A DNA stretch of 64,000 nt from the NCBI RefSeq assembly GCF_038396765.1, contig NZ_CP150096.1, forward strand, positions 3,207,001 through 3,271,000, written 5' to 3'. Each line of letters begins with the position of its first letter. The first letter of the stretch is position 1. The notes under the pieces are model-generated. The model was given only the letters and a program-made list of their open reading frames with translations, was not told the DNA's origin and ran no database searches. Origin of the DNA: Chitinophaga caseinilytica (lineage in GTDB: Bacteria > Bacteroidota > Bacteroidia > Chitinophagales > Chitinophagaceae). Positions 6,442 through 54,752 of this stretch are shown in pieces. The position numbers were made by a program, and so were the translations under genes.

Positions 6442-6509
6442 CAATGTCAGACCAATAACCAATATCAGGCAATACATCCTTTATTACTGGCCTGTTGAAA
6501 AAAATGTGA

Positions 6510-7328: not shown

Positions 7329-7339
7329 ACCTTCCCGTA

Positions 7340-7552: not shown

Positions 7553-7665
7553 CTACATTAATTAATCCTGGCGGGCCCATATCAAAATAATATTATCGCG
7601 GAAACCATCACTTTTTTTACTTTAGTTTGCATCTCCGCTGATAATGTCAACCAATGTAGCCAGCT

Positions 7666-8304
7666 ATGCCTGTAAGCCAGAATTATGATGAGAATGCGTT
7701 GCTGCAATTAATTGCAGACGGCGATGAGCGTGCATTTGGCGTGTTGTTCTCCCATTATTATCCCCGGTTGTTTCCGCTGGTCCACCGCTTTTCCCTCACC
7801 GATACCGACGTGCAGGAAGCTTTGCAGGAAACCTTCATCCAGGTGTGGCTGCACCGCGACCGCCTCCCGGAAATCGCGAACCTGCAGGGCTGGCTGCTCC
7901 GGATCGCATCGCGCCGCTGCCGGGAATTGCTCCGGAAGCACCTGTTACAGGAGCGCACCATTGCAAACGCCGCACTGGTAGCCGAAGAGGAGGTGGCGGA
8001 TACACCGTCGCACCACATGCAGGGCGGGGAATTGCGGCGGCTCGTACAGGAAACGCTGGACGGCATGCCGGAGCAGCGCCGGAAAATTTACATCATGAGC
8101 AGGGAACTGGGCCTGAAGCCGGCGGAAATCGCGCAACAGCTTTCCCTATCCGTCAGCACCGTGAAAAACACCCTCGTTGCCGCATTGAAACAAATGCGCT
8201 CCCGCCTGGAGGAATCCGGATACATCGTTTGCTCCGTATCCGTCTGCTGCAAAATTTTTCTTTTTACGATAGTACGTTCTTCATCGGCGATGCACTTCAT
8301 TTAG
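7666..8304 (+). CDS. ECF-type RNA polymerase sigma-70 factor
   Basis: This sigma factor of 212 residues has region 2 at about 12-85 (DERAFGVLFSHYYPRLFPLV, then QEALQETFIQVWLHRDRLP) and region 4 at about 120-185, with the helix-turn-helix GLKPAEIAQQLSLSVSTVKN. Such Bacteroidota ECF factors direct transcription of a SusC/SusD locus and are held inactive by a FecR anti-sigma until the SusC STN domain signals substrate binding. The FecR gene follows after 18 bases and the SusC gene after that, so the three form a complete cell-surface signalling chain. The last 25 residues are cysteine-rich and outside the usual domain. Confidence 0.95.
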   Translation: MPVSQNYDENALLQLIADGDERAFGVLFSHYYPRLFPLVHRFSLTDTDVQEALQETFIQVWLHRDRLPEIANLQGWLLRIASRRCRELLRKHLLQERTIANAALVAEEEVADTPSHHMQGGELRRLVQETLDGMPEQRRKIYIMSRELGLKPAEIAQQLSLSVSTVKNTLVAALKQMRSRLEESGYIVCSVSVCCKIFLFTIVRSSSAMHFI

Positions 8305-8322
8305 GTCAAGCTACCTAAAACC

Positions 8323-9528: not shown

Positions 9529-9597
9529 ATCATAGTGCCTGACCGCCCGCAGTTAGGGCCTGCGCGGCGCATCCGGCTTACAGACAGACATGAAAAA

Positions 9598-9624
9598 ACC
9601 GTCACGGTTAGGGCCGGTGACGGT
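9598..9624. other. Perfect 8-bp hairpin between fecR and susC
   Basis: ACCGTCAC (9598-9605) and GTGACGGT (9617-9624) form a perfect stem with an 11-base loop. A run of six A precedes it (9593-9598), so on the minus strand it reads as stem plus T-run, the form of an intrinsic terminator. No minus-strand gene ends here. It may block antisense transcription, or act as an RNA stem in the fecR-susC leader, lowering or protecting the downstream message. Confidence 0.45.
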
Positions 9625-9694
9625 GGATGATTCCAGTTCGTGCTAAACGGATTTGACCAACCACATTTATCAAAACCAAAATCAGTTGCAAGGT

Positions 9695-13261: not shown

Positions 13262-13300
13262 CAGCATGAAACATCATTATTTGAAAACGAACCAGTTGTC

Positions 13301-14791
13301 ATGAAAAGACTTTCCATATTCATCATTGCCATTGTAAGCCTCAGCGCCTGCAAGAAATGGCTGAACATCACGCCCAAGTCCGAGATTTCCGCTACCGAGC
13401 TGTTCAAGTCGGAGCAGGGGTACAAGGATGCATTGATCGGTTCCTATCTGCTGATGACCAATTCCGGATCTTACGGGTTCGAAAGCACCCTGGGGCTCGT
13501 GGACGTACTGGGGCAGCAATACGCGATGCCGGGCACTACGCATCCTTACTATTATGCGTCGGCTTACCAGTACGATCATTTATCGGTAGTGCCGAAGAAA
13601 GACAACATCTGGGCAACGGGCTACCAGGCCATCGCCAATCTCAATAACATCATCAATACGATAGATGGCAACAAGGGCATGCTTCACCCGGCTAATTACG
13701 CGATGATAAAAGGGGAGGCACTGGGCCTGCGGGCATTCCTGCACTTCGACCTGTACCGCCTCTTTGGCGCGGGGAACCTGGTGAACGATCCGTCGGGGCT
13801 CGATTTGAAGGTGCTACCGTACGTGAGCCGTTACGCCAAGCAGATCACGGCGCCTGTTGCCGGCAGGGCTTTCCTCGATTCCGTGGCGGCCGATCTGGCT
13901 ACCGCCGCATCGCTCATGGCGAAATACGATTCCATGAGCGTAGAGCTTAACGCCGATAACGGTGTGGAAATTCCGAACGCCGATCTGTTTTACAACAACC
14001 GGCGCATGCGCTTCAATTACTACGCAGTGAAGGCTACGCAGGCCCGGTTGAACCTCTGGCGCGGCAATTACGCGCTGGCGAAGGAAGCTGCGCAGGAAGT
14101 GGCCGATAAAGGCATGCGGTACCTCGTTTCCTTCAACGGCGGCAACATCAACGATCCCAACCCGGTAAACAAGGATTTTACTTTCAGCACCGAGCACGTG
14201 TTTTCTCTGAACGTGCAGAATATGTTCAACGTCATCAAGCCATACATCGACCAGTTCGGGCCAGACGGCATCAATGCCAATACCTCGAAGCTGGCGCACA
14301 GCGGAACGGTGGCCAACGAATTGTACGAGGTGAACACGAAGCCGGGTATGTCTTTGTCGGATTACCGGTACAAGGAGCTGTACAAGAAAGTGTCCAGCAC
14401 GGAATTCCTGCTGCTGAAGTTTACCTACGTTACCCCTTCCGTGTTCAAGGACCGGATGCCCATCATCAAGCTGCCGGAAATGTTTTACATCCTGGCGGAA
14501 TGTGCTAACGAGACGGGAGACATCGCCACTGCAGTGGATTACCTCAACAGAATGCGCATCAGCCGCGGTATTTCCAACCAGTACAATCTGCCGGCCAGCT
14601 TATCGAAGGAAGAAGTAACGGTGGAAATTCTGAAGGAATACCGGAAGGAATTCGTTTCCGAAGGACAGTTGTTTTATTACTACAAGCGGAGAGGAGAAGC
14701 CAATATCCCGGGCACCGCCAAGGCGATGAACAACTCCGTTTATATGCTGCCGCTGCCGCAGCGGGAAATCGAAATGGGTGGCGGCAACTGA
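13301..14791 (+). CDS. SusD/RagB nutrient-binding lipoprotein
   Basis: This is the outer-membrane lipoprotein partner of the SusC above (496 residues). The lipobox LSAC puts the lipidated cysteine at C17, followed by KKWLNITPKSEI, a typical mature SusD N terminus. The middle has the TPR-like helices of the family (ALGLRAFLHFDLYRLFG near base 13720-13765), and the C-terminal part has the KEYRKEFVSEGQLFYYYKRRG motif. It starts 39 bases after the SusC stop in the same operon. The ligand cannot be read from the sequence. Confidence 0.95.
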   Translation: MKRLSIFIIAIVSLSACKKWLNITPKSEISATELFKSEQGYKDALIGSYLLMTNSGSYGFESTLGLVDVLGQQYAMPGTTHPYYYASAYQYDHLSVVPKKDNIWATGYQAIANLNNIINTIDGNKGMLHPANYAMIKGEALGLRAFLHFDLYRLFGAGNLVNDPSGLDLKVLPYVSRYAKQITAPVAGRAFLDSVAADLATAASLMAKYDSMSVELNADNGVEIPNADLFYNNRRMRFNYYAVKATQARLNLWRGNYALAKEAAQEVADKGMRYLVSFNGGNINDPNPVNKDFTFSTEHVFSLNVQNMFNVIKPYIDQFGPDGINANTSKLAHSGTVANELYEVNTKPGMSLSDYRYKELYKKVSSTEFLLLKFTYVTPSVFKDRMPIIKLPEMFYILAECANETGDIATAVDYLNRMRISRGISNQYNLPASLSKEEVTVEILKEYRKEFVSEGQLFYYYKRRGEANIPGTAKAMNNSVYMLPLPQREIEMGGGN

Positions 14792-14833
14792 TCGCCCATG
14801 CGTCGAAGTCCTTAACCGCAAAAATGTATTACC

Positions 14834-15556
14834 ATGAAAAAATTACTCGTCATCATATCAGGCACCTGCCTGCTGTTCGCCTGTAAGAAATCGCAGGTGG
14901 AAACCTATACGGATGAAGCCCCGGCGATTTATTTCACGCTGACGGATTATTCCTATTCCTTCATGAGCGATCTCGACTCCACTTCCCGGACGATTTTTCT
15001 GCCCGTGAAGCTTTCCGGCTCGCTGCACGATCAGGAGCGGAGCTTCTCCATGGAGGCGGTCTATGATACGAATACCACCGCAAAGCCGGAATGGTATGAG
15101 ATCAAGCCGGGATATCTCCCCGGGAACAGCGTCAACGGCGTAGTGCCGATCGTGCTGAAACGAAATGCCACCGTGGATACGTCTTTGGTGAAGCTCCGGC
15201 TGAAGCTCAAGCCCGGCAGCGCCCTCGATACCATGTCCAACGCCTCCGTGCAGGTGGTTTGGACGGGCATGATCATCCAGCCTGTGAACTGGCGCTGGCT
15301 TCGCTACTATTTCGGGACGCCGTTTTCTACCGGTTGGTACAAGTTCATCGTCAACGCCACCGGCCGGTCTACTTTCCCGTACGACGGTACCCTGTCCAGG
15401 ACCGATCCCGTTACCTGGTGGATGACCGCCGGGCAGATTCAGGCGTACGCCCTGCAGGTGAAAGAAGCCCTGCAGGCTTACAACGCCGCCAATCCCGGAA
15501 GCCCGCTCCGCCACGACGATGGCCAGTATAAGGGGGAACTGGTGTCTATGCCCTGA
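14834..15556 (+). CDS. DUF4843-type surface lipoprotein
   Basis: This lipoprotein of 240 residues has a lipobox LFAC (C17). The body is beta-rich and shows the features I associate with DUF4843 proteins of SusCD loci: an AIYFTLTDYSYSF start, a middle part of paired strands with VPIVLKRNATVDTSLVKLRLKL, and an aromatic C-terminal segment near NWRWLRYYFGTPFSTGWYKF. It probably sits on the cell surface as an accessory glycan- or peptide-binding component of the SusC/SusD complex. It lies between SusD and a PKD-like lipoprotein in one operon. No enzymatic motif is seen. Confidence 0.8.
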   Translation: MKKLLVIISGTCLLFACKKSQVETYTDEAPAIYFTLTDYSYSFMSDLDSTSRTIFLPVKLSGSLHDQERSFSMEAVYDTNTTAKPEWYEIKPGYLPGNSVNGVVPIVLKRNATVDTSLVKLRLKLKPGSALDTMSNASVQVVWTGMIIQPVNWRWLRYYFGTPFSTGWYKFIVNATGRSTFPYDGTLSRTDPVTWWMTAGQIQAYALQVKEALQAYNAANPGSPLRHDDGQYKGELVSMP

Positions 15557-15579
15557 TTTTTCAACCTAACATCATTATC

Positions 15580-17178
15580 GTGAAAAAATCCATCTACTAT
15601 ATATTGATCGCAATGGCGGCAGTTGCCGTTTCCTGCGTCAAAGACAAATCTACTTTCAACCTTACGAAAGTGTCGCCCATCGTCATAGACACTACCGGGC
15701 TGCCGGCGTCTTACATCGTGTTCCAGTTCGATACGCTGCGCGTGGCGCCGGGCATTCAGCTGGAAGGGAAAGACCCCGCCGGCCTGCGTTACCAGTGGAC
15801 GATGAACGCCTTCGGCGGATATGAGCGCGTGGTGGGAAATGAGCAGCAGCTCAACGCCCGCATCACCGAAAACCCCGTTACCACGGCCTACGCCCTCATC
15901 CTGCGGGTGACCGATACCGCCACCAACCTGAAAGCCTTCTTTTCCTGGAACATCAACGTGGTGTCTCCCTTCGGCGAAGGCCTGATCGTGGCCGATACCA
16001 AAGACGGCGTCAATAGCGACGTAAGCCTGGTGATGGCGTATAACTTCACGTCTGCGTTTCTGACAGACAGCGCCACCGCCCGTACGTTCCTCCACGCATA
16101 CAGCAAGGCGAACGGAGACCAGCCGGTGCCCGGCCTGGTGAAGCAGCTGAACTATATGCGCTACAATACCATGAAAGACATCACGCTGCTGACCGACCAA
16201 TCGTTCATCCGCATGAACCCCAATTCTTACCAGGCAACCGTGAAAGATAATGCGCTGTTCCTGCTGCCGCCCGCTACCATCAAGCCAGACGGGATCCAGA
16301 CGGCTATCGTCAGGAATCAGCACCAATACCTCATCAACAACGGGAAAGGATATGGCCGGTACGGGAACAACGAGCAATTCGGCTATTCGTTCCTGGCGCC
16401 GGATGCGGCCGGGTATGTTACGCAACAGATCTGCGGGCTGCAGTCGCCGGCGTCTAACCTGCAAACCGGCGGCATATTGTACGACGAGAAGAATAACCGC
16501 TTTTTGATGCTGCCGAAGATGACGAGCATGAGCAACCCGCTCGTAGCGTTCAGGCCGGTAGATTATTCCGATCCCGCACCGGCGTTCGACCCGGGAACGA
16601 TGGGGAATAAAACCTGCGTTGCCATGATGGAAGGTTACGACCAGCGGATCGTTGCCATCATGAAAGATCGTGGCAGCGACCGGTACTACGCCTGCCAGGT
16701 GAAGCTCACCGAGCCCATGACGGGCAAAATGGGCGTGGCGATGAACGATCTCGGCAACAATCCGGAGATCGCGGCGGCGAAGTTCTTCACCTGCTCCACC
16801 GCCGAACAGGTACTGTTTTACGCCACAGAAAGCAAAGTATACGCCACCACCACGGAAATCGGCAGTCCTGCCACCACCAACCTCCGGTACACCGTGCCCG
16901 CGGGGCACAAGATCACCGGCATGAAGATGTACGCCGGCGGAGGAAGGATGTATCTCCCGAACCCGAATGCCCCGGGCGACTGGCAACAAAAACAAACCGC
17001 CATGTCCGACAACAGGTTATTGGTGCTCAGTACCTACAACGAGGCTACGAAGGAAGGGAGGATCGTTACCATTCCGCTGGAACTGCTGGGCGTGGGCGGA
17101 TTGGTCGCAGATCCGGCGTATATCAAGACCTATGGCGGTTTTGGCAGGATAACGGCTTTCAGTCCGCAGGCTTTATAA
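15580..17178 (+). CDS. PKD-like family surface lipoprotein
   Basis: This lipoprotein of 532 residues begins with GTG at 15580, 23 bases after the DUF4843 stop; the lipobox is VSC (C19). An Ig/PKD-like region lies at about 45-125 (RYQWTMNAFGGYERVVG). The rest has a repetitive beta-strand character with polar turns, suggesting a propeller-like fold (about 135-530). Proteins of this kind recur in Bacteroidota loci together with SusC, SusD, DUF4843 and thioredoxin-like genes. The ligand is unknown. No catalytic residues were recognised. Confidence 0.75.
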   Translation: MKKSIYYILIAMAAVAVSCVKDKSTFNLTKVSPIVIDTTGLPASYIVFQFDTLRVAPGIQLEGKDPAGLRYQWTMNAFGGYERVVGNEQQLNARITENPVTTAYALILRVTDTATNLKAFFSWNINVVSPFGEGLIVADTKDGVNSDVSLVMAYNFTSAFLTDSATARTFLHAYSKANGDQPVPGLVKQLNYMRYNTMKDITLLTDQSFIRMNPNSYQATVKDNALFLLPPATIKPDGIQTAIVRNQHQYLINNGKGYGRYGNNEQFGYSFLAPDAAGYVTQQICGLQSPASNLQTGGILYDEKNNRFLMLPKMTSMSNPLVAFRPVDYSDPAPAFDPGTMGNKTCVAMMEGYDQRIVAIMKDRGSDRYYACQVKLTEPMTGKMGVAMNDLGNNPEIAAAKFFTCSTAEQVLFYATESKVYATTTEIGSPATTNLRYTVPAGHKITGMKMYAGGGRMYLPNPNAPGDWQQKQTAMSDNRLLVLSTYNEATKEGRIVTIPLELLGVGGLVADPAYIKTYGGFGRITAFSPQAL

Positions 17179-17214
17179 CGCAATCATTTTCCATCATACA
17201 ATAAAAAAATAAAC

Positions 17215-18450
17215 ATGGTTTTCAGGGATTTTCAAAGGAGCATGCTCCTGACGGGATTGCTATGCCTGCTGGGCGGTGCTTCCGGGTACGCACAGGGCAT
17301 CGAGTTCATGCATAACCTCGATTCGGCGCTGGCGAAAGCGAAGGCGGAAAACAAGGTCGTGTTCGTGGATTTTTACACTTCGTGGTGCGCGCCGTGCAAG
17401 CAGATGTCTAACGAGGTTTTTCCGCAGAAAGTGGCGGGAGATTATTACAATTCCCGGTTCATCAGCTGCAAGGTGCAGTGCGACGATAAAGGCATCGGAG
17501 AAGCCGTGGGCAAGCAATACAGGATCAACGCTTATCCCACGCTCATGTTCATGGACGCCCAGGGCAACAACATGCATTCCATGGCCGGCGGCCTGGATGT
17601 CAAAGGGCTCATTTCCCTCGCGGAAACCGCTACCGATCCGCAAAAGAACCAGCTGTCGATGGTGAAGGAATGGGAATCCGGCAACAGAACGCAGATTTTC
17701 ATGAAACGGTACTTCGAAAACCTGGTGAGATCTTACCGGGGCGATAAAGCGAAGGCCGATTTCGATGCCTGGTTCACCACCCTCAACAAGGAGAAAAAAG
17801 CGGAGAAGATTACTTACGAGCTGATGCAGATCATCAAAGTAGCTCCATTCAGCGTACCGTTCGAATACATCGAATCGAACAAAAAAGACTACTACCGCAC
17901 CGTGGGCAAGCCGGTAATCGACAGCTTTATCGCCACCACTTACCTTTGGTACCTGAGAGGCATACAATCTATCGGTCAAACGAACAAAGACCTGACGCAA
18001 TTCAACAAGGAGTTGGCGTTGTTCAAATCCAAAAAATACCCCTATTACGAGGAGTACGCCAGTTTCTATGCGGTGTTCGATTCGAAGGACGCGAGCGGGA
18101 AAGACGATATCAAGTTGTATCAGCAGCGCGGTACCGACTTTTTGGCCAAATATGGCCGGAAAAACGATTCCTATGCCATTTCACTGACGCATATGCTGGG
18201 CAACTGGACGGGCCGCAAAGACGCAGGCGCGGCTGGTATAACGTGGATGGAGGATTTGCTCGCCAGGAACCGTAACCCCCGCTACCTGAATACCTATTTC
18301 TACATCCTGTGGCGCAATTACCAGTTTAATAAAGCGGTGGAAGTAGGGAATGAAATCCGGGACGGATTGGTGAAAAACGGGAGAAATACAGCGGATATCG
18401 ACAAGCAAATCCAGATGGTAAAGGATCTGATCGTGAAATATGGAAGCTGA
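17215..18450 (+). CDS. Secreted thioredoxin-fold protein with long C-terminal extension
   Basis: This periplasmic protein has 411 residues: signal peptide (about 1-26, ending GYAQ), then a thioredoxin domain (about 30-140) with active site WCAPC (C58, C61) in VDFYTSWCAPCKQM and the cis-proline in INAYPTLMF. Residues 145-411 are a helical extension of unknown fold that is not part of classic thioredoxin. It may reduce disulfides in the imported substrate or mature the lipoproteins of the locus. It is the last gene of the sigma-FecR-SusCD operon and is followed by a strong terminator at 18499. Confidence 0.85.
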   Translation: MVFRDFQRSMLLTGLLCLLGGASGYAQGIEFMHNLDSALAKAKAENKVVFVDFYTSWCAPCKQMSNEVFPQKVAGDYYNSRFISCKVQCDDKGIGEAVGKQYRINAYPTLMFMDAQGNNMHSMAGGLDVKGLISLAETATDPQKNQLSMVKEWESGNRTQIFMKRYFENLVRSYRGDKAKADFDAWFTTLNKEKKAEKITYELMQIIKVAPFSVPFEYIESNKKDYYRTVGKPVIDSFIATTYLWYLRGIQSIGQTNKDLTQFNKELALFKSKKYPYYEEYASFYAVFDSKDASGKDDIKLYQQRGTDFLAKYGRKNDSYAISLTHMLGNWTGRKDAGAAGITWMEDLLARNRNPRYLNTYFYILWRNYQFNKAVEVGNEIRDGLVKNGRNTADIDKQIQMVKDLIVKYGS

Positions 18451-18498
18451 GGTACGAATTTACCAGACCAAATAAATTTGATTTCCCCAACAACGATG

Positions 18499-18521
18499 CG
18501 CCCGGGCCAACTGCCCGGGCG
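18499..18521. terminator. Bidirectional intrinsic terminator
   Basis: A perfect 9-bp GC-rich stem, CGCCCGGGC (18499-18507) and GCCCGGGCG (18513-18521), encloses a 5-base loop and is followed by TATTTGT. It lies between the convergent thioredoxin-like gene and the STAND ATPase gene and can serve both. Confidence 0.75.
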
Positions 18522-18539
18522 TATTTGTACAATGTCAGC

Positions 18540-21500
18540 TTACTTGAAATGCAGCCCCAACTCCCGTAACTGCTTCTTATCCGTAATGGGCTGCACCGGC
18601 GACCCCGGCGCATACAGTTTCGCCCAGATCGATGCGGGGTCGAAAACGTTCAGGCGCGAAGTGTCGTTATGGAAGATCGTCAGGTAGCGGTCGCGGGCGT
18701 AGAAGTAGGTTTGTCCGCCGTTTGCCATCCCGAAAAGATCGTTCGAGGTGATCAGCAGGCCTTTTTTGAGGGTAAGATTGCTATCCAGCACCAAAAGCCG
18801 GTTGTTTTGCGTGTACACCATCACATCGCCGGAAGCCGCGTTGAAAAGTTGATCTTTCACCCCTTCCGGAACTACGTACTGCCGTGGCGGCGTTTTCTTC
18901 CGGATATCGTACCTGAAAATGGTGTCTGCGGCATCGCTGGTGGCGCCTGGCCCGGAATGGGTGTTCCGCAGCATGATGGCGAAGCCTTTCCCCATATGGA
19001 TCCCGATGGGCGTGCCGGTCAGCGATTCCGTAGCGCCGTTGTTGAAATTGGAGACGTTCACACCATTTACTTTACTGAATGCGAACGCGTTGATGGGGCT
19101 GTTCCCCAGTACCACGGCAAACATTTCCGTAGCCAGGTTGGCATAGGCATAGTGAATGTCGCGGTTGAAAGGGGCGTCGTAAATCAGCGTGTCGGCACCG
19201 TTCAGGATATTGCAGATGCTGGGTGAGCCCCAAAGCGGGGAGCCATCGTCCGTGAAATCGGTGAAAGTGATTTCGCCGGAAATGCGGTGCAGTTCCACGC
19301 CGGTTTCGCTGATAACGTGCAATTCCGGGTAGTAGCCGAGACTGTATTCCAGGTACATGAACTTGCGGCGGTCGCGGGAAACCGTGACGGTAGACGATGC
19401 CGCGAACCTTGCAAACACCTTTCCGTATTTGTTCAGCAACATGATCCTGTCCCTGCCGTTTTCAACATATGGCACGATGAGGTTGCCGGAAGCCGTGGCC
19501 TGGATGTGATAGGATTCATGTTCGTCGTTCGCATATTTCAGGATTTCGGAGACATCGTGCAACTGCTGCCCCGTTTCCAGGGGAATGCGGATGGTTTCAT
19601 CTTTTGCGGGGTCGTACAGGAACCCTTCATTCCGGAGCCAGTACATCGCCCGCATGCGGTTGCTGCGCGAATTGCCTTTGGTCGATAGTCCGGTAGATAC
19701 CAGTTCTTCGCGGATGGTGCGCTTGCTCACCGCCACCAGGTTGGATCCATTGACGAAATAAGCGTACGGCACGGAATCGAATTTCATGAGGTTGGCACCC
19801 TGGATGGTGCTGATTTGATATGATTTCAGCGAGTCCTGCGTTTCCTTGGGCAGGAAGTTGTATAACACGAGCTTCCCGTCGTCAGACAGGTCGATGTCCA
19901 GCGCGTCTACTTTCACGAACGGCAGGGTATAGGTGGAAACGGCGAACAAAGCCTGCGATTTCTGCAGCTGCATGATTTCCTGCAGTTTCTCGTCCACCAT
20001 TTTCGCATCTTCCCCATACACTTTATCCCGGAACACCTTGAAAAGCCCCAGGGCTTCCCGGGCGTCTTTGCCGGCGAGGTCGAACCCCATGTACACAAGG
20101 CTTTCATTGCGGTTGAACGCGCGGCGCAGCGACTGGATGTACAGCGTTACCACCGTGATCCCCACCACCAGCAGCACGCCGATCACCCAACTGTACCGCC
20201 ACAGCCGTTGCCGGAACTTCTGGCGCTTTTCCTTCAGCTGGTCTGCATGCCTTTTGTTCACGCTGGTCCTGTAAAACTCCACCACCTCCGCCGGCAGGCT
20301 CAGGCGTTTCATATACGGTTCGTAGGAGGCGATCTCGCGGAGGCTCAACAGTTCGCTGGTATTATTCTTGAACCCTTCGTACCGGCTGATGATCTGCTTT
20401 TCGGTGAACCCCGTTTTCCGCTGCTCCTCCGTCCTGCGGTTGTCTATCAACCCTGCGAGGATATCGTGCGCCAGTTCATACGTCTGTCCATCGCTCCGTA
20501 AAATTTTATTCTTCTCCAGTTCGGTCAAACAACTCGTCATCAGCGCCGCCGACCGCCCCTGCAAATACGGCGGCACCAGGCCGGTAAACCATATGCCGTT
20601 GTTCACGCGGGCATACGGCAGCGGCCGTTTCGTGCCTTCGCTGGTCACGAATGCATCGAGCGCATTGGCCACGAAATCATCTTCTATATCCGGGAAATCC
20701 TTTTCCAGCTGCTCCTGTATCACATGGATCCGCTCATGCATGAAACGGTCCAGAACATCCTGCAAACTGCCGAACTGCCGGATGATGGCACTGTTCACCG
20801 TCAGTGGCGGCCAGGCGGAACCGGAAGGCTCCGGCTTGTTGGGCGTGTTCATGTAAACCGTGCGCCAGAGCTGGTCGAGGTAGATTTGCAGATAGGGGAG
20901 CGATACGGACTGCCGGTCCTGCAACACGTTGATGATCTCTTTGGCGTTATCCGCGCCCTGTTCCAGCCGGATGTTGAAGCGCTCGCAGCTTTTGAGGATC
21001 ACTTCTTCCACGTTCCGGTTGTTCATCGTCTCGATGCGCAGCCGCCGGTCGCAGAAATCCGGGATGGCGCGCTCGAAAGGGCTCAGGCCCGCGAAGAATT
21101 CTTCCCGCATGATGAACAGGAAATTGCAGAACTGGAGATCGGGGTCGTATAGAATATGGTCGATGATCTCGATGATCGTTTTCTTTTCCTCTTCCGTTCC
21201 CATGATCAGCAATTCCTCGAACTGGTCGAAAATGAGGTAAACCGACCTGAGGTAACGGAGATTGATGCCTTTGAGCGCCTCGTAAACCTTCTGCGCTGCG
21301 TCTCCCGCGCTGCGGCTGCGCAATACGGACGGCGCCTGTTTATACCCCTTTCCGCCCGCCAGCGAGTTGGTCGGCATCTCCCCGGAAAAGGGATCGGCGG
21401 CGGATTGCGTGGCAGACAGCAGCGAATCCACCAGCTGATCGCCGCGGCGGATAAACAGGGGGAACCAGTCGGTATCGTCCATCCGGTTTTGCAGCCCGCA

Positions 21501-21674
21501 TTGCACGATGCTCGTTTTACCCGTGCCGCTGGTGCCGTACACGAGCACGAGGCGGTTTTTGTGGATGTGCTGGTAGAGGGCGTTCACTTCTTCGTCGCGG
21601 CCGAAAAAGATGTTGTAGTCTTCCCTGCCGTAAGGGTCGAGGAATTTGAAGGGGCTATTGAGGATGCTGTTCAT
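18540..21674 (-). CDS. Membrane-anchored STAND-type P-loop ATPase with C-terminal sensor domain
   Basis: This protein has 1044 residues. The start (FKFLDPYGREDYNIFFGRDEE) is typical of nSTAND1-type NTPases. Walker A is GTSGTGKT (47-54) and Walker B is LIFDQFEEL (147-155). A winged-helix-like region follows to about 440. One hydrophobic helix (about 490-512, WVIGVLLVVGITVVTLYI) precedes about 530 residues of beta-rich sequence, probably a propeller. This suggests a cytoplasmic NTPase switch tied through the membrane to a sensor, possibly periplasmic. Its ATG overlaps the stop of the CHAT protease gene by one base (21674), so the two are made together; the CHAT protein is the likely effector controlled by this switch. 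The ligand is unknown. Confidence 0.85.
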   Translation of the reverse strand: MNSILNSPFKFLDPYGREDYNIFFGRDEEVNALYQHIHKNRLVLVYGTSGTGKTSIVQCGLQNRMDDTDWFPLFIRRGDQLVDSLLSATQSAADPFSGEMPTNSLAGGKGYKQAPSVLRSRSAGDAAQKVYEALKGINLRYLRSVYLIFDQFEELLIMGTEEEKKTIIEIIDHILYDPDLQFCNFLFIMREEFFAGLSPFERAIPDFCDRRLRIETMNNRNVEEVILKSCERFNIRLEQGADNAKEIINVLQDRQSVSLPYLQIYLDQLWRTVYMNTPNKPEPSGSAWPPLTVNSAIIRQFGSLQDVLDRFMHERIHVIQEQLEKDFPDIEDDFVANALDAFVTSEGTKRPLPYARVNNGIWFTGLVPPYLQGRSAALMTSCLTELEKNKILRSDGQTYELAHDILAGLIDNRRTEEQRKTGFTEKQIISRYEGFKNNTSELLSLREIASYEPYMKRLSLPAEVVEFYRTSVNKRHADQLKEKRQKFRQRLWRYSWVIGVLLVVGITVVTLYIQSLRRAFNRNESLVYMGFDLAGKDAREALGLFKVFRDKVYGEDAKMVDEKLQEIMQLQKSQALFAVSTYTLPFVKVDALDIDLSDDGKLVLYNFLPKETQDSLKSYQISTIQGANLMKFDSVPYAYFVNGSNLVAVSKRTIREELVSTGLSTKGNSRSNRMRAMYWLRNEGFLYDPAKDETIRIPLETGQQLHDVSEILKYANDEHESYHIQATASGNLIVPYVENGRDRIMLLNKYGKVFARFAASSTVTVSRDRRKFMYLEYSLGYYPELHVISETGVELHRISGEITFTDFTDDGSPLWGSPSICNILNGADTLIYDAPFNRDIHYAYANLATEMFAVVLGNSPINAFAFSKVNGVNVSNFNNGATESLTGTPIGIHMGKGFAIMLRNTHSGPGATSDAADTIFRYDIRKKTPPRQYVVPEGVKDQLFNAASGDVMVYTQNNRLLVLDSNLTLKKGLLITSNDLFGMANGGQTYFYARDRYLTIFHNDTSRLNVFDPASIWAKLYAPGSPVQPITDKKQLRELGLHFK

Positions 21675-23521
21675 TACGGTGCCGGGGTTAATGCCTGCTG
21701 GGCGAACTGCCGGAAGGCGATGAGTTGTTGGCAGATGGCTTCGTACCGGCCCTGTTCCTGCTGCTCGTTCCGCGCAAAACGACGGTTGATGTTGATGCGC
21801 ACATGGTCGAGCGGCTCGTCGGGCTTGGGGACCGTCCGGAAAACGTAGGTATCGTCTGCCGGTTGGTATTGCCCGAATATGACGAGGTTGGAGCGGTCAG
21901 ACCGGCTTTCGAAGGTGTTCACGTCTACCACGAGGGGCGAAAGGTTGAGGAATTCCAGCGAATCGCCTTTGTACTGGCGCCTTTCCACGTTGAAAACGGG
22001 CAGCATCTGCTTGGTGAGCACCACGCCGCTATTGTCCAGGTGATGAGCGAGCAGGTAATAGTTGATTTCGTGGCTGGCGTTGGAGTTCATGAGTTTGACC
22101 ACCTGGTGGTCGAACACGGTGAGGGTATCGTGCCGGTATTTGTTGATGCGGATATTCTGGATGCTGGTGAGCGTGTAGCGATGGAGGAACCCCAGCCGCT
22201 CGAACACCGTGCTGAGCATGTCTTCCGCCCGGATGCAAAGTGCGGGCACTTCCGCCTCGGGGACCTTCTGGCCGCCCGCCGCCCCGAAACCCGTGTACGT
22301 GACCGATCGGATGTATTGCAGGAACACGCAGGCCTCGCTGAAAGGCTGGTTCTGCGGATCGTCGTCGCGCAGGGTGGACAGCTCGCTCACGAAATATTGC
22401 ACATCTGCCAGCGAATCGATGTATTTGCGGATAGACCGGATCAGCGCCGAATAATCGTACACGGAGCGGTCGGCGATGGAAAGACCGAAATATTTATCGA
22501 GCAGTTCCATCATTTCATCCGGCAGGTTTTCCACTTTTTGCGTGATTTTCAACTCCCACAACTGCGAGATCATGATAATCCCCATGAACTCCGACGCGAT
22601 GTGGAACGCCCGCCCGATCTGCTCGAGCCGTTTGATGCCGGGCTGCTTCAGTCCCTCAGCGCCATATTCCGCCGCAAATAGCGTTTTAAGCTGAATGGCG
22701 ATGGGGTGGGGCAGCACGTCGAGGATCGTTTTCTGTAACATATTGTCTTCGATGATCTCGGTTTGCCGCCGGTCGTCGATCTGTTTGGCGGGCAGATTGC
22801 CGTCTTTCACCAGCGCGTTAAACAGTGCCTGGGTCAGCTGGGCGTTGGGCTCGTACGGCGGCAGGGGCTTGTTGGGCTCGCTGGGCAGCGGGTTTACGTC
22901 CACCGCCGCGGCATTATTGAAAAACAGCCCCCAGAACGGTTCGCGCGGCGTTTTTCCGGGCAGGTTGAGATCGCGGGCGGGCGGCGCGTCTACGCCCAGC
23001 GGTACCTGCGACGCGAGCTGCGCCGATTTCAGCGCGGCGTCGAACGCCTGGCGGATGCTCATTCCCTTGGTACAGACGTTTTTAAAAAATTCCACACCGA
23101 AAATCCGGGCCGACAAATCATTCACCGCAGCCGAAGTGGCGATCACCGCCGGAACGCCCAGTGCCAGCAGCTGGTCTACCTGCGCGCCCGTAGAGCAGCC
23201 GTTGAGGATCACCAGGCGGAGGGCGCCGGCGTCTGCACTGGGCTTCAACAGGTAAGCGAGGCCCTGCCCGCTAGCGGCCTGATCGGTAAACAGGAGGGAT
23301 TGTTCGCCGGCGTGGCCGGCATAGTGGAAAATGGCGATCTCCGCACCGTAAGTGGAAAATGCATTGTTGATGTTGGAAACGGTGGCGAAAGACTCCCGGT
23401 GAACGCTGTAATCTCCCCGGTTGGCGGCGATCAGGGTATTATGGATGCCCTCGTCTTCCTCCGTCACCGATTGCAACGGGGCCTGTGGAAGATTTGCAAA
23501 GGCAATAATGATCTTTTTCAT
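21674..23521 (-). CDS. CHAT-domain (caspase-like) protease
   Basis: This is a cysteine peptidase of clan CD with 615 residues. The N-terminal CHAT domain (about 1-190) has the catalytic histidine in FHYAGHAGE (H70) and the catalytic cysteine in LNGCSTG (C109), with VPAVIATSAAVND after it as in other CHAT proteins. Residues 200-615 are a long, mainly helical region that I do not recognise, perhaps a binding or autoinhibitory part. There is no signal peptide, so it acts in the cytoplasm. It is the first gene of a two-gene operon with the STAND ATPase (one-base overlap). The caspase genes are divergent, 198 bases away. In known systems CHAT proteases are activated by partner sensors and cleave host or effector proteins. 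Confidence 0.88.
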   Translation of the reverse strand: MKKIIIAFANLPQAPLQSVTEEDEGIHNTLIAANRGDYSVHRESFATVSNINNAFSTYGAEIAIFHYAGHAGEQSLLFTDQAASGQGLAYLLKPSADAGALRLVILNGCSTGAQVDQLLALGVPAVIATSAAVNDLSARIFGVEFFKNVCTKGMSIRQAFDAALKSAQLASQVPLGVDAPPARDLNLPGKTPREPFWGLFFNNAAAVDVNPLPSEPNKPLPPYEPNAQLTQALFNALVKDGNLPAKQIDDRRQTEIIEDNMLQKTILDVLPHPIAIQLKTLFAAEYGAEGLKQPGIKRLEQIGRAFHIASEFMGIIMISQLWELKITQKVENLPDEMMELLDKYFGLSIADRSVYDYSALIRSIRKYIDSLADVQYFVSELSTLRDDDPQNQPFSEACVFLQYIRSVTYTGFGAAGGQKVPEAEVPALCIRAEDMLSTVFERLGFLHRYTLTSIQNIRINKYRHDTLTVFDHQVVKLMNSNASHEINYYLLAHHLDNSGVVLTKQMLPVFNVERRQYKGDSLEFLNLSPLVVDVNTFESRSDRSNLVIFGQYQPADDTYVFRTVPKPDEPLDHVRININRRFARNEQQEQGRYEAICQQLIAFRQFAQQALTPAP

Positions 23522-23577
23522 GACTGATATGGAATTGGGGTAAATAAATTCCTTGCTGCACGATGGAAATCTCGACT

Positions 23578-23596
23578 TTTGGAGTTAATTTGGAGT
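23578..23596. promoter_or_regulatory. Tandem TTTGGAGT repeats in the divergent control region
   Basis: TTTGGAGT occurs at 23578-23585 and again at 23589-23596, exactly 11 bases apart (one helical turn). The pair lies between the divergent CHAT/ATPase and caspase genes. The 198-base gap also has ATAACCCC at 23647-23654 and at 23682-23689. These could be operator half-sites or promoter parts; no regulator gene is adjacent. Confidence 0.4.
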
Positions 23597-23689
23597 CACA
23601 ATCTATTACCTAAGGTACGATTTTTCAACGAATTAGTCAGGACGCGATAACCCCAGGAACAAACGAAGCAGTGTATTCGGAATAACCCC

Positions 23690-23708
23690 GGAATTCCTAT
23701 TTAAATAG
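23690..23708. promoter_or_regulatory. Two abutting palindromes just before the caspase start
   Basis: GGAATTCC (23690-23697) and CTATTTAAATAG (23697-23708) are perfect palindromes sharing one base. They end 11 bases before the ATG at 23720, so a protein bound here would block transcription or initiation of the caspase gene. Confidence 0.4.
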
Positions 23709-23719
23709 TAGCAGAATAT

Positions 23720-26634
23720 ATGCAAGAACGTCGATTTTATGCGGCTTTCGCCGGCATAAACGGATATCCCGACAGTCCGCTCAGCGGCTGCATACAGGAC
23801 GTGCTGAAAATGGACCGCCTCTTCCGCGATCAATGCGCGGCGCAAGTTGGCCTCAGCTATCATCCTGCCTATTATCTCCAGCCCAACACCGCCGACCTCC
23901 GGCTGCTCGACAAATACGCCGCTTCCGTTGGCGCCCCCTCGCCTGGCTGCCGCCCACTTTCGACAACTTCACACAAAAAATATTCACCCATTTCGCCGAC
24001 GCAAAAGCCGGAGATATCTGTGTTTTCTTTTACAGCGGACATGGCTCCCAAACGCCTGCGCCGCCTGAATTCCACCGGAACAATCCCAGCCGGAAACTGC
24101 AAACGATCGTTTGTGCAGACAGTCGCACCACCGCGCGCGACCTCACCAACAAGGAATTCGCATATTTGCTCTGGAAAGCCTTCGGTAAAACGGATGCGCA
24201 TTGCCTCGTGATCACGGACTGCTGTCATTCCGGCGGCAATACCCGCGCCCTCGCGCCCGTGGGCGCTGCGGGAGAATTTCGTCCCCGTTTCCAGGCAGAC
24301 GGCGATACGGAATTGTCCTTTACCGATTTGCTGGGGCACGATGTGCCGGGGTTTTTCAAACTGGAAGACGGGGAGATGAAACCCGAAATAGCCGGGTATA
24401 TCCACTTCGCGGCCTGCCGGGCCGATGAGCTGGCGCAGGAATCCTGGCGCGGCGGGCTTTTCACAGGGCGACTGACCGATACGCTCCGGGCCAACGGCGG
24501 GGCCACCTCGTACCGGGATCTCATGTGGCGGTTACAAACCGTCGTGAATACAGCTGCGGCCGATCAGCATCCGGTCGTTTTCGCGGCAACGAACGCGGAC
24601 CTCGACGGGAGATTCCTGTCAGGCGCCATGTTGCCCGTTGTACCGCGATATGAAGTTCTGTTCGATGTGAGCCTCCAACACTGGAAACTCTTCGCCGGCG
24701 CGCTGGAGGGCCTGGCGCCCGGTGCGGTGGTGGAGGTGAAGGACGGGGATTTCCGGAAGGAAGTGGAACTCCAGGAAGTGGACGCGCTTTTTTCCCTCAT
24801 AGACATTGCAGACCTCGATACGGCGTCCCAAACGGCGCGGGCAACCCTGGTGCGGGCAGCGGCTCCGCGGTTGACGATGGTTTCAGCGCCCGATCCCGCT
24901 TTGGAAACGGCATTGGGAAAAGAACGGTATCCATTGGTGGATGTAAAGTTCGGGAACGGCGAAAGCGCGGGCTATACAGTGTTCCGGCCGGAAGACGGTT
25001 CCTATGTATTATTGGAGAACGGTGGTACGCTGCCGCTTTTCCGCAGAACGGCGAGCCCGGAAATGTTCCTGCAATACGCGCAGCGCGTTGGTGCCTGGAT
25101 GGCTGCGCTGGACTGGAAACGCCTCGATCCCCGGCTGGCCCGCGAACATTTCGAGCTGACGTGGAAAGTGGTGGAAGGGAGTAATCGTCAGCCCGTAGCA
25201 ACCCCGGCAACGGGCGATCTCCTCGAACTGCATTACCGCGATGGGAAACAGCCCGCGTTTCGCCTCAGCATTGCGTTGAAGGCAGACGCCCCGGTAGAAA
25301 AATGCTTCGTTCGCGTGCTGTATCTCGGCAGTAAATTCGATATCTACCCGAGCCTCATAAATGACGGCGAAGGCCCGCTGACACGGGGCGGCGCTCCGCT
25401 CGAGCTGGCTTATATCGATAACGGGAGAACGGTGTACGATATTCCCGTGTCCATCGATGAACAATACAGGTCATATAACAGGTACCGCATACACGATTAC
25501 CTGAAGATCATCGTTTCCACCGCGCATTTCGACGTAACGAAATTCGAACAGGACGCCCTGGAGCTGGATGGCCCGGGGAACCGCGGACTGGGCAGTTCGC
25601 GCGGGACGGACGAAGATACACGGGAAGGTGTTGCCTGGTCGGTGTTTACGGCCCGCATCGCCACTTCGTTCGAGGGTTTGGAAAAAATGATGGGCGCGGG
25701 AGAAAAAGCGAAGCTCGGTGCGCTGGAGATACGAACGCCGGCAGGTTTTTCCGGGAAATGCGCACTCATTGCGGAAGGGGATGTGCCGGCCGTAGCATCC
25801 GCTGCCTGGGGCGCGGGGTCGTCCGGCAATGCGCTGGATGGCGGGATGGCGGTTTTACGCGTGGAAATGTCGGGGAACCTCCGGCCGGAGGAGCCTTTGA
25901 GCGTTTTGCTGACGCCGCCCCTGGCGGAAGTCCGGCAATTGCCGCCGCATGCTGTAGTCCCGTTCGTGGCGGAAGCGGATGCATACCGGCCCGTGGGGTT
26001 CCAGGGGAGTTCCGGTTCCGTGGCGATCACGGAAATTCCGGAGACCGATCTCCGTTTCAGGCGCATCTTCCTCCCCGGAAAATATGCCGGCCTCCGGATC
26101 TATTCCCGCGAAAACGGCTCCTGGCAACAGCGTCCCGGTTTCGATCCCGGTATTCCCGGCGCCCTGCTGCTCGACGGTGTTACCGGAAACTCGGAGTTGA
26201 TGTGGCAGGCATTTTCCGCGCGGCCCAATGCGCCTGCGCAACTGCTCCGCTTCGATTATTCGCCGGCAGACGACCTGTCTGTCGTCTCGGAAAGCCTGCA
26301 CGCCGCCATCGCGGGCCTTGGCGCGGGGAACGTGGCGGTCATCACCAACGGCATCGGCCGGCAACTGGCGCAAATGGCGGAAATCCCGCAATCGGGCGCG
26401 ATGGTTTTTACGGGAGACGAGCGCGAAGGCCGGACATCGGGCGATTTGCTGCGCATGATGGCTTTCTCGGTACGGGAAACCGGTGTCGTGAAAACAGCCA
26501 TCCCGGCATTGGCGGCCACGCTGCAGCTACACACGGAACATACGCCGGATACGGTAGTTAATGGATTATATCCCGGTTATCTCCAGGACGAAAAAATCAT
26601 CACATCGATCTTACATCAAATCATTCCACATTAA
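23720..26634 (+). pseudogene. Caspase-like peptidase (C14) gene with a one-base frameshift
   Basis: The gene starts at 23720 with a clear caspase N terminus (FYAAFAGINGYPDSPLSGC). After about 72 residues the frame is lost at a run of five C (23934-23938), and the family sequence resumes in the -1 frame (WLPPTFDNFTQKIF). That frame contains the catalytic histidine motif FFYSGHGSQ and the cysteine motif VITDCCHSGG. Restoring one C gives a single protein of 971 residues: caspase domain (about 1-290), then about 680 residues of beta-rich unrecognised domains, perhaps with a DUF4384-like part (FRVLYLGS-type strands near base 25300). It may be a true mutation, an assembly error or a slippage switch. 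The second caspase gene follows after 11 bases. Confidence 0.8.
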
Positions 26635-26645
26635 ACTGATACGAC

Positions 26646-29248
26646 ATGTCTAAAGGCTATTCCCTGCACATCGGGGTGAACAAACTGGACAAGACGCATT
26701 ATTTCGACGTGCCCGAACTGAAAGCGGCCGTTGCCGATGCGAAATTCTGGAAAGCGTTCGCGGAGCAGAACGGCTATAAAGCCAAAAAACTCCACAACGA
26801 TGAAGCTACCGCATCCGCCGTGCTGACCGCCCTCGCGGATTATGCAAAGCTATTGCAGGCGGGAGACATCCTCCTGCTCACATACGCCGGCCACGGCAGT
26901 CAGATCGGTAACGATAAAGTGACGGGGCTGGACAACGAGCGGAACGACCAGACCTGGTGCCTGTACGACCGGGAACTGCTGGACGACGAGCTGTTCGAAG
27001 CCTTCCGCGAATTCGGGGACGGTACGCGTATTCTTATCGTGTCGGACAGTTGTCATTCGGGCACCATCGCCCGGGTGGCGAAATCCCCCAAACCCTCAGC
27101 GAGCACCTCGCCGCCGGCCTGGAAAACGCGACGGAAATGCGCGGCCTCAGATCCCGGAAACTGCCGCTGAAACAGGAACAGGATATTATGGAGACGTATG
27201 GCCCTACGGTGTACGGTCCGCTGCAAGACCAGTTCCGCTCAACGGCCCAGGCGGCGAACGTGAAAGCGGCGGTGAAGCTGCTGGCCGCCTGCCAGGACGA
27301 TCAGACTACTTTCGATGGTGAATCCAACGGCGTGTTCACCGAATCGTTCATCGAACTGTTCCGCAAAGCGGCCACCCGCAAGAAAAACGCGCCGGAACTG
27401 ATAGACGCCATCCGTGAAAGATATTATTATCCCCGCCCCAATTTCTTCGAATACGGCGCCATCATCCCGTCTTTCGACGCGGCATTCCCGTTCCAGATCG
27501 ATATTCCCGATGCGGCGGTCGTAAAAGGTTCCCGCAAGCCGGACCTCAAACCTACGCCCGCAGGCCGTAACCTCACGAAAGAAGAGGAGTGGGACGAAGT
27601 GAAGGTGAAAAGGAACGCGCAGTTGCTCGTTACCTGGAAAGTGCCGCCCGCCAAAGACATCGATCCCGGAAAAGACATCGATATCCTCGAAAAAGGCGCG
27701 GATTACCTCGTGCTGGAAATGAAAACCACCCCGCACGAGCACAGCTGGAGCGCGGCGCACGCCCTTCGCCAGAGCCTCCTGGCCGCGGGCCTGGAAGCCG
27801 TCGTGGAACCGATCATGAGCGTGTCGCCCGCGCAGGACAAGCGCGCTACCCGCGAGGGAGACGCCAACAACCCGGACTACATCCGGGAATGGCCGCCCGC
27901 CATGGGCGAGGCTGCCATCGGCTGGCACCTTGGCGATGCGCATTCCCAGCTCGCCAAAGCCACAGCAGAAGTGCGGGCCACGCCCGGCGCCCACGTCCGC
28001 ATCGCGCACCTGGACACCGGTTACATCGCCGGCCATCCCGCGCTGCCGGAAAACCTGGACCTCCAGCGCCAGCGCAACTTCGTGAGCAAGGAAAATCCCG
28101 ATTTGGCGCAGGATAAACCCGAATCCGGGCAAGACGGCCACGGCTTGGGCACGGTTGTTTTGCTGGCGGGCGGTAAAGTGACGAAAACACAGACGTTCGG
28201 GGAATACGAAGGTTATATCGGCGGCGCCCCGGTAGCAACGGTGGTGCCTTGCAGGATTTCCGAATCGGTGGTGATCATGAACGACCGCACTTTCGCCGAA
28301 GCGATCGACTATGCGATCGGGGAGGGCTGCGAAGTAGTGTCGATGTCCATGGCGGGGAAGCCCAGCCAGCGGATGGCGCGGGCGGTGAACCGGGCTTACG
28401 AGGCGGGGATCGTGGTGGTGTCTGCCGCCAGCAACTGCTGGTACAAGGGCACGGGCGCCCTGTTGCCGAAATGCGTCCTTTTCCCGGCGGCTTTCGAGCG
28501 GGTGATCGCGGCCACCGGCGCCATGTACGATCATAAGCCCTACGATGTGGACTTCCTGCGCGAAGGCTCCGAGCGGGCCATCAGCACGCAATACATGCAG
28601 GGCTCCTGGGGCCCGGCATCGCGGATGACGCGCGCCCTGGCCGGCTATACGCCGAATACGCCCTGGGCTTCTTCCGTTCACCCGTTCGTGCGGAGCGGCG
28701 GCGGCACCTCGTCGGCCACCCCGCAGGTGGCGGCCACGGCGGCGCTCTACATTGCCCGGCACCGGAACGAAATGGAGCAGAAAGGATATTATGACGAAGG
28801 GAAGAAATGGATGAAAGTGGAAGCCGTTCGCCATGCGCTTTTTACCAGCGCCGCGAAAGGGAACGTTTTCGCCGACTGGAAGAAATATTACGGGAACGGG
28901 ATCATCCGCGCCTGGGACGCCCTGCAGGTACCGGTGGCGGAACCCTCTACGCTGGTGCAGTCGCCCTCGGCCGAAAGCACCTGGTGGGGGATCGTGGAGA
29001 TTGTAGGCTCGTTCTTCAAGCGCCGCAAACTCTTCCGCAGCACAACGCCCGTGCCGCCGGAAGAAGCCCTGGCGGCGGAACTGCTGCACCTGTTGCAGAC
29101 AGATCCCCAGTTCTACGAGCTGTTTTCCCGCATCGACCTTTCCAACCCCGTGGAGATCGAAGCCACCATTGGCCAGCCCGGTTTCCGGGACAAAGTGCTG
29201 GCTTCCCCCTATGCATCTTCCTGGCTGAAAGAGGCGATGATGATGTAA
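26646..29248 (+). pseudogene. Caspase-subtilisin fusion peptidase gene with a one-base frameshift
   Basis: Residues 1-174 from the start at 26646 form a caspase domain with YAGHGSQ (H83) and VSDSCHSGT (C136). After residue 147 the frame breaks at a run of five C (27085-27089) and continues in the -1 frame. Restoring one C gives 867 residues. The second half is a peptidase S8 domain with a complete triad: Asp in HLDTG (codon 28013), His in DGHGLGT (28139) and Ser in GGGTSSATP (28709). The oxyanion Asn is in SAASN. The tail has a short unknown region. There is no signal peptide. As it stands, the cell could make a short caspase piece and, by restart at ATG 27188, a caspase-less subtilase. A terminator follows at 29386. 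Confidence 0.82.
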
Positions 29249-29473: not shown

Positions 29474-33067
<3,594 letters not shown>

Positions 33068-54678: not shown

Positions 54679-54752
54679 GTTTCTCCATTTTATACCACAA
54701 AATTATCACGGCTTCACTTCCCCCGAAACCCGCTTCTTGCGCAATCCGGTTG

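Follow-up and report, generated by a model that had tools for sequence, protein, structure and literature searches.

A divergent CHAT, nSTAND1 ATPase and caspase locus of Chitinophaga as a candidate NLR-like proteolytic conflict system

A four-gene protease locus in Chitinophaga caseinilytica

In a 64,000-nucleotide stretch of Chitinophaga caseinilytica DNA (contig NZ_CP150096.1, positions 3,207,001 to 3,271,000 of the forward strand; hereafter the window), which belongs to a genome of the soil-bacterial genus Chitinophaga in a single 6.5 Mb contig, we found a locus of four genes. Two overlapping minus-strand genes, encoding an nSTAND1 ATPase and a CHAT-family protease, face two plus-strand genes, encoding the caspase proteins CaspA and CaspB-S8, across a 198-base spacer (23522-23719 by the listing of open reading frames, ORFs). 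We propose that this locus is an NLR-like proteolytic conflict system, probably of the abortive-infection or cell-suicide kind, that is built from two modules, and from the sequence evidence we put the probability of this reading at about 0.6. The four genes are real and conserved. What the sequence itself establishes is how the proteins are built, their catalytic residues, the pairing of the genes, the motif-rich spacer that they share and their joint occurrence in the genus. The features are as follows, numbered from the first letter of the window.

18540..21674, minus strand: nSTAND1 ATPase, NLR-like; 1044 amino acids, with a P-loop NTPase at about 1-420, a transmembrane helix at 495-513 and a variable C-terminal half
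21674..23521, minus strand: CHAT-family cysteine protease; 615 amino acids, with the H70/C109 dyad and a conserved C-terminal region of about 380 amino acids that has no Pfam match
23522..23719, no strand: control region shared by the divergent pairs; 198 bases, five GGRGTNA motifs
23537..23543, plus strand: GGRGTNA motif 1
23581..23598, plus strand: GGRGTNA motifs 2 and 3, 11 bases apart
23648..23654, minus strand: GGRGTNA motif 4
23683..23689, minus strand: GGRGTNA motif 5
23720..26634, plus strand: CaspA; caspase domain, middle region and degenerate alpha/beta-hydrolase remnant; frame-broken near 23934
26646..29248, plus strand: CaspB-S8; caspase domain fused to a subtilisin-like S8 protease; frame-broken near 27085
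29474..33067, plus strand: hybrid sensor histidine kinase; a conserved neighbour of the locus, counted outside the four-gene set

An earlier reading made from the letters alone (the sequence-only reading) had described a one-base overlap between the STAND and CHAT genes and a control region of 198 bases. Both are confirmed, and base 21674 is the one that the two ORFs have in common. The same reading had placed two genes with caspase motifs on the plus strand; both do carry a Peptidase_C14 domain, but each is present as two overlapping ORFs in different frames (CaspA as 23720-24211 and 23833-26634, CaspB-S8 as 26646-27170 and 26957-29248).

CHAT and the nSTAND1 ATPase form a conserved pair

The sole Pfam match in the 615 amino acids of the CHAT protein is to PF12770 (E 2.5e-06), and a profile of its family matches PDB entry 8tl0, which is a CHAT protein. 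The catalytic pair H70 and C109, named in the sequence-only reading, does not vary in an alignment of 16 sequences that includes the window's, and it is kept in 82 of the 82 assessable sequences in a wider set of 84 CHAT ORFs (the columns are absent from two fragments). The STAND protein matches nSTAND1 (PF20703, E 1.7e-32) from residue 8, its P-loop columns are invariant across 14 aligned sequences, and its hydropathy peaks in one strong hydrophobic helix at residues 495-513, all of which agrees with the earlier call of a STAND-type ATPase with a membrane helix. The C-terminal half had also been called beta-rich. The window's own protein has no convincing Pfam match in that half, but some homologues have WD40 or beta-propeller matches. 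Mean pairwise identity is 71.5% in the ATPase part versus 41.5% in the C-terminal half (36 pairs from 9 genomes), and the C-terminal half is, judging from sequence, probably the sensor.

The wider set comes from 80 CHAT loci, the best 80 of at least 301 confirmed relatives, chosen by CHAT similarity alone. An ATPase gene follows directly downstream on the same strand for 79 of the 84 CHAT ORFs that include the C-terminal region, and the most frequent junction is a 4-base overlap. The five ORFs without an ATPase comprise three at or near the end of the available DNA (L152, L123 and L164), one on a 3.6-kb contig (L182) and a 273-amino-acid fragment (L176). We scanned 56 of the 79 STAND partners with Pfam, leaving out those from Chitinophaga and those shorter than 560 amino acids, and found nSTAND1 in all 56 and WD40 in 13. 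The STAND ORFs are between 244 and 1675 amino acids long, some of them truncated by contig ends. The pair is found mostly in Bacteroidota records and also under KSB1, Aminicenantes and Alphaproteobacteria labels. At one locus (L094 5903-9886), the ATPase of the pair has a leucine-rich-repeat (LRR) tail, which is the layout of animal and plant NLRs. The finding that STAND tails may be WD40, LRR or unnamed suggests exchangeable sensor tails, as in NLRs.

The plus-strand genes encode a caspase-hydrolase and a caspase-subtilase

CaspB-S8 matches both Peptidase_C14 (PF00656, E 5.5e-11) and Peptidase_S8 (PF00082, E 2.7e-21), and none of its caspase H/C or S8 D/H/S columns varies among 13 intact relatives, which upholds the S8 protease that had been read in this gene. 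When we searched with the intact caspase-subtilase protein, at least 210 proteins matched at E 0.001 among 7998 candidates scored, and 117 of the 120 matches listed have both Pfam domains. In CaspA, the second piece matches Peptidase_C14 (PF00656, E 9.9e-13), and the PADLOC "caspase" model has matches in three of the four pieces into which the two plus-strand genes fall (5.1e-13, 7.9e-07 and 7.1e-04).

CaspA had been described as a caspase. The caspase domain stands, but the description is incomplete, since it missed an alpha/beta-hydrolase half. In most of 16 aligned relatives, CaspA extends to about 1100 amino acids and has a lipase-like alpha/beta-hydrolase at its C-terminus. An intact relative (L051) matches DUF7379 above its cut-off (E 2.1e-11), with PGAP1 and Abhydrolase_1 below theirs, and in a CaspA paralogue from the window's own genome (L062), Abhydrolase_1, PGAP1 and DUF676 are also above their cut-offs. 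A search of the PDB with the CaspA family profile led to metacaspases and lipases. The alignment of 16 relatives and these Pfam and PDB matches rule out a plain caspase. A Pfam scan of the G079 copy gave no hydrolase match, and at three further loci (L092, L108 and L109) the caspase and middle part are present and there is no hydrolase match. The own genome also holds a 1121-amino-acid caspase-hydrolase that keeps its serine (L063 251-3616), and the 8 kb examined there contain no match to either CHAT or STAND.

The four genes occur together within the genus

To describe how the genes are distributed, we used a sample of 79 Chitinophaga genomes. A CHAT match at E 0.001 is present in 32 of them and an orthologue with at least about 50% identity in 17, the window's own genome included. 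We found the caspase-subtilase in 16 of these 17 genomes, and all 16 genomes that have it are CHAT carriers; a more distant caspase-subtilase occurs in G094, which has no CHAT match. The frame of the orthologous caspase-subtilase is single and full-length in 14 of the 79 genomes, is broken in the window, and in G092 lies in an assembly full of frame breaks. That assembly is 65% complete, and at its locus (L054) the breaks run across the locus genes and the kinase. The gene order is divergent in all 14 other genomes with the whole set on a contig. In G006, the contig ends inside CaspA, and the caspase-subtilase and kinase are on a separate contig. The exception is G020, where the caspase-hydrolase, CHAT and STAND share a strand and nothing beyond an S8-type ORF is found elsewhere. 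The distances of the four proteins correlate at r 0.84-0.94 (55 pairs from 11 genomes, uncorrected for species relatedness).

Of the 22 GGRGTNA motifs in the whole window, five lie in the shared spacer, distributed over both strands (three and two). Across the 17 spacers examined, we counted 52 motifs versus about 3 expected from shuffles, figures that overstate the significance because the motif was chosen by eye from the window spacer. The two-sided layout is present in 10 of the 17 spacers, seven of which come from close relatives; two spacers (L052 and L064) have no GGRGTNA and two others (L050 and L056) show no clear excess. We also considered a GGRGTNA regulon and rejected it: the 11-base tandem occurs only twice in the 6.5 Mb genome, and so does a reversed control pattern.

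The two modules separate outside the genus

At the 80 CHAT loci, we found a caspase-domain ORF in the examined flank of 35 and a caspase-hydrolase in that of 22 (16 of the 72 loci outside Chitinophaga), in varied orientation. The caspase-subtilase is in the examined flank of 8, all Chitinophaga, and 72 are without it. As a base rate, caspase-hydrolase alignment matches at E 1e-60 occur in 4 of 296 genomes of the phylum, own included, and only 2 of those 4 cover the hydrolase part; this rate is rough, with at most two candidates scored per genome and thresholds that differ from those of the CHAT-locus count. The caspase-subtilase matches at E 1e-100 in 3 of 395 genomes of the class, own included, again with at most two candidates scored per genome.

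The plus-strand genes likewise occur by themselves. At two loci outside the genus (L192 and L193), a caspase-hydrolase adjoins a caspase-subtilase with no CHAT-STAND pair in 18.5 and 16.7 kb, respectively. At three others (L194, L196 and L197) and in Chitinophaga G094 (L200), the caspase-subtilase is found without either caspase-hydrolase or CHAT-STAND, and at L195 its companions are a shorter caspase and an ORF that resembles CHAT. Since each pair is found without the other outside the genus, we regard the locus as two modules that are joined in Chitinophaga. The sequence-only reading had treated the four genes as one system and had named independent occurrence of the two strand pairs in most genomes as a result that would speak against it. 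Such independence exists in part, outside the genus (the 72 of 80 CHAT loci without caspase-subtilase, and L192 and L193); within the genus, the joint occurrence (16 of 17), the motif-rich spacer and the co-varying distances support a single locus.

Two very large proteins combine the plus-strand domains. One of 1905 amino acids (L198 5837-11554) has two S8 stretches, a caspase and a DUF7379 hydrolase by Pfam, and one of 1908 amino acids (L199 5914-11640) has caspase, S8 and hydrolase matches to profiles that we built.

A proposed pathway and the results that weigh against it

In the conflict system that we propose, the membrane-anchored nSTAND1 ATPase would use its fast-diverging C-terminal part to recognise a danger signal, bind nucleotide and, as its family membership suggests, oligomerise. 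STAND ATPases oligomerise upon engagement of their sensor part. The ATPase would then recruit and activate CHAT, probably through the conserved C-terminal region of CHAT, as the gene pairing suggests; CHAT is the likely direct output of the ATPase because the CHAT-STAND pairing is almost obligate. Activated CHAT would cleave or otherwise trigger the caspase-hydrolase and the caspase-subtilase, in a presumed cleavage order. In lineages that keep its serine, the hydrolase may damage membrane lipids, and the caspase and subtilase may degrade cellular proteins, so that the cell would be killed or arrested, presumably to its benefit. We propose the order from STAND to CHAT to effectors because CHAT is switchable in type III CRISPR and because the caspase of the Canu system activates a pro-effector. 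An order of sensor, initiator and effectors had already been suggested in the sequence-only reading, and it fits the architectures; the rest of the scheme is prediction.

Several results weigh against this proposal. The hydrolase serine and the C-terminal part are lost from CaspA in the window, G079, G062 and G076, the serine is lost in G031, and in G012 the CaspA ORF is shortened to 637 amino acids, without the middle and hydrolase part. Among the 22 caspase-hydrolase ORFs at the 80 CHAT loci, 16 retain the serine, as judged by motif, and it is missing in 6. Because the serine or the whole domain is lost in several lineages, a lipase step cannot be universal, and CaspA is a case in which one warhead, the hydrolase, has decayed repeatedly and the other parts have stayed. 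No caspase is found in the examined flank of 45 of the 80 CHAT loci, many of which lie on short contigs, so that CHAT-STAND must often have other outputs. In the window itself, both effector genes are broken. Judging from its kinase neighbour, the locus occupies one and the same chromosomal position in 12 of 17 carriers; this agrees better with stable inheritance in the chromosome than with a mobile defence gene. When we scanned ten flanking proteins with PADLOC, no defence island was evident among them: there were 3 matches, at E 1e-6 to 1e-9, and two of the three matched proteins are two-component genes by Pfam (the third was left out of the Pfam scan). A "defence island" setting finds no support in the ten flanking proteins scanned.

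Frame breaks in the sequenced strain

In the relative G079, whose CHAT is 98% identical, CaspA and CaspB-S8 are single ORFs of 971 and 867 amino acids. Both breaks in the window coincide with cytosine runs, one near 23934 and one near 27085, whose lengths are not those of G079, and these two sites are the sole comparable runs with six C in either genome when the window is compared with G079. Of 33 G079 ORFs of at least 150 amino acids that were matched in the window (some counted twice), two are split, the caspase-subtilase and a 315-amino-acid ORF near 54750; CaspA is a further split ORF; the shortness of its first piece made it count in this comparison as one piece, with a coverage of 93%. 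The window genome holds 485 other exactly six-base C/G runs, and the window itself keeps a run of this length at 38663; a whole-genome shortening of homopolymers is therefore unsupported as the cause of both breaks. Possible causes are a local miscall, a recent double inactivation or slippage switching. The CaspA of G035 (L049 7409-10319) falls into three frames, a second case of decay or error in this gene.

It is a serious possibility, falling only a little short of even odds, that the effector arm of the sequenced strain is a pseudogene pair or a slippage switch and that the window holds a sensor without working effectors. The coincidence of both breaks with the only comparable six-C runs, both of which differ from G079, favours it, as do the 485 remaining runs, which speak against a blanket shortening, and the fragmentation of CaspA in G035 and its reduction to 637 amino acids in G012. 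On the other hand, the pieces are still near their G079 counterparts (97.5% for the S8 part and 88.2% for the main CaspA piece), so that any inactivation would be recent, and a long-read homopolymer miscall is an alternative cause. Homopolymer miscalls are a common long-read error. With neither effector gene in one open frame in this assembly, the sequenced strain itself may have an inactive effector arm.

Chromosomal setting and further alternatives

The hybrid sensor histidine kinase (29474-33067) lies at most 3 kb from the caspase-subtilase in the 12 kinase-adjoining carriers, which are the window, G079, G062, G076, G035, G060, G031, G003, G070, G072, G092 and G006. With 8 candidates scored per genome, a kinase match of at least 60% identity at E 1e-250 is found in 13 of the 79 genomes, every one a carrier, and none of at least 60% identity was found in non-carriers; because of this, no clean empty site can be defined. 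On the other side of the locus, G079, G062, G076, G031, G003 and G072 have gluconate-permease and PfkB-like genes, and G035 has them in part; the examined flanks of G060, G021, G012, G070, G071 and G020 showed none, in a comparison that left out G061 and G092. From 6472 to 18540, the window has a block with SusC/SusD-like genes, judged by eye, which is absent from the same site in G079.

The kinase neighbour also bears on the question of whether the locus acts in conflict at all. A stress, envelope-quality or developmental pathway of cell death or autolysis would use a periplasmic C-terminal half of STAND to sense envelope damage and the proteases to remodel or lyse the cell, with no phage role. 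The single mid-protein membrane helix could put the STAND C-terminal half outside the cytoplasm, a sensor kinase stands beside the locus in those 12 of 17 carriers, and the four proteins co-vary in their distances (r 0.84-0.94), all of which would suit such a pathway. In contrast, the patchy presence (17 of 79), the diverging C-terminal half and the differing WD40 and LRR tails fit a conflict role better than housekeeping, and we consider the envelope or autolysis pathway unlikely.

It is more improbable again that the two strand pairs, CHAT-STAND and caspase-hydrolase/caspase-subtilase, are separate systems merely side by side. Each is found without the other outside the genus, as described above, but within the genus the caspase-subtilase is in 16 of 17 CHAT carriers, one motif is enriched on both strands of the shared spacer, and the caspase-hydrolase recurs with CHAT-STAND elsewhere (for example at L064 and at L062 in the own genome). 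Housekeeping proteolysis without a conflict or death role is the least probable of these readings: the neighbourhood is the same in many carriers and metabolic and two-component genes adjoin, but 62 of the 79 genus genomes have no CHAT orthologue of about 50% identity, and the caspase-subtilase matches in only 3 of the 395 class genomes.

Comparison with known systems

We compared the proposed conflict system with the relevant portions of five published sources (PMC7159879, PMC8195603, PMC10907252, PMC11417357 and PMC12799240), and the four-gene set was not met among the top-ranked results from the open-licence PMC literature. In type III CRISPR, CHAT is a switchable protease, in SAVED-CHAT (PDB 8tl0) and in TPR-CHAT/Craspase, in the portion of the source compared (PMC11417357). 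The CHAT of the locus has the CHAT fold with its His/Cys dyad in common with these but has no SAVED or TPR domain by Pfam, and its activator, as proposed, is the STAND ATPase. In the Canu caspase-nuclease system, as set out in the part compared, a caspase activates a linked pro-effector (PMC12799240); the four genes differ in that they have no nuclease domain by Pfam, their effectors are a hydrolase and a subtilase, and the initiator would be CHAT. The portion of PMC10907252 that we compared describes STAND and DGR conflict loci of multicellular bacteria, in which nSTAND1 or NACHT ATPases have variable C-terminal sensors; one of these loci has a neighbouring S8 peptidase with WD40 repeats, and another has a target with CHAT and TIR domains. 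No fusion of caspase to hydrolase or subtilase and no CHAT-nSTAND1 pair was noted in that portion. Avs and bacterial NACHT proteins (PMC10907252, in the same portion) resemble the ATPase in being STAND NTPases with a variable C-terminal half, which would have a sensing role here. They differ in that the locus has no N-terminal effector fusion (nSTAND1 starts from residue 8), has a separate CHAT gene and two further proteins, and has a membrane helix in its ATPase. EACC1-associated caspase systems (NF047832) have caspase effectors in common with the locus; the caspase_w_EACC1 model scores 24.4 and 28.1 bits on pieces of the two broken genes, versus a cut-off of 140.

A bolder interpretation is that the locus is an apoptosome counterpart, in which an APAF1/NLR-like ATPase with a WD40 or LRR tail controls a CHAT initiator that proteolytically frees two double-warhead executioners, a caspase-lipase and a caspase-subtilase, and that CHAT-nSTAND1 is the core of a widespread, unnamed family with exchangeable sensors and effectors. 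We hold this interpretation tentatively and think it rather doubtful. If it were true, the CHAT-nSTAND1 pair would be a widespread unit of an NLR and an initiator protease, parallel to APAF1 with caspase-9, with the caspase-lipase and the caspase-subtilase among its effectors. This interpretation raises the direct question of whether a bacterial NLR-like ATPase switches on a separate protease that cleaves caspase zymogens.

The closest layouts to the proposed conflict system are those of the VMAP MoxR-vWA ternary systems, in which the caspase always occurs with a neighbouring alpha/beta-hydrolase gene and STAND NTPases recur, according to the portion compared (Kaur et al. 2020, PMC7159879); in the text of that paper the word CHAT is absent and "subtilisin" occurs once. 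The combination of caspase and alpha/beta-hydrolase is common to both, fused in the CaspA of relatives and decayed in the window lineage. The four-gene locus differs in having no MoxR or vWA domain by Pfam and in having caspase and hydrolase in one protein. Membership in the EACC1, Canu and MoxR-vWA systems was considered and rejected, as at least one defining feature of each is missing at the window locus, which is plausibly a branch of the known NTPase-protease conflict systems made of known parts.

Elsewhere in the own genome, L062 (C1:5720500-5740400) is a run of CHAT, STAND, a caspase-hydrolase that keeps its serine, a second caspase, AAA_5, a CoxE-type vWA gene and a large pYEATS caspase, so that the MoxR-vWA core (AAA_5 and VWA_CoxE) is present in this relative beside CHAT, STAND and caspase-hydrolase. 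L092 has CHAT, STAND, the caspase without a hydrolase match, a second CHAT, AAA_5, a 375-amino-acid gene without a Pfam match and another caspase. At three loci (L104, L105 and L106), a large caspase comes after a CaspA-like gene, a CHAT-domain gene and a pair of genes of roughly 350 and 400 amino acids, and STAND is absent; L110 resembles them without the CaspA-like gene. We take the two middle genes of L104-L106 and L110 for an AAA/vWA pair, going by their size and place only. The layouts of L062, L092, L104-L106 and L110 are close to the MoxR-vWA systems as described in the compared portion of PMC7159879, and the window locus looks like a compact relative of these systems that has neither MoxR nor vWA.

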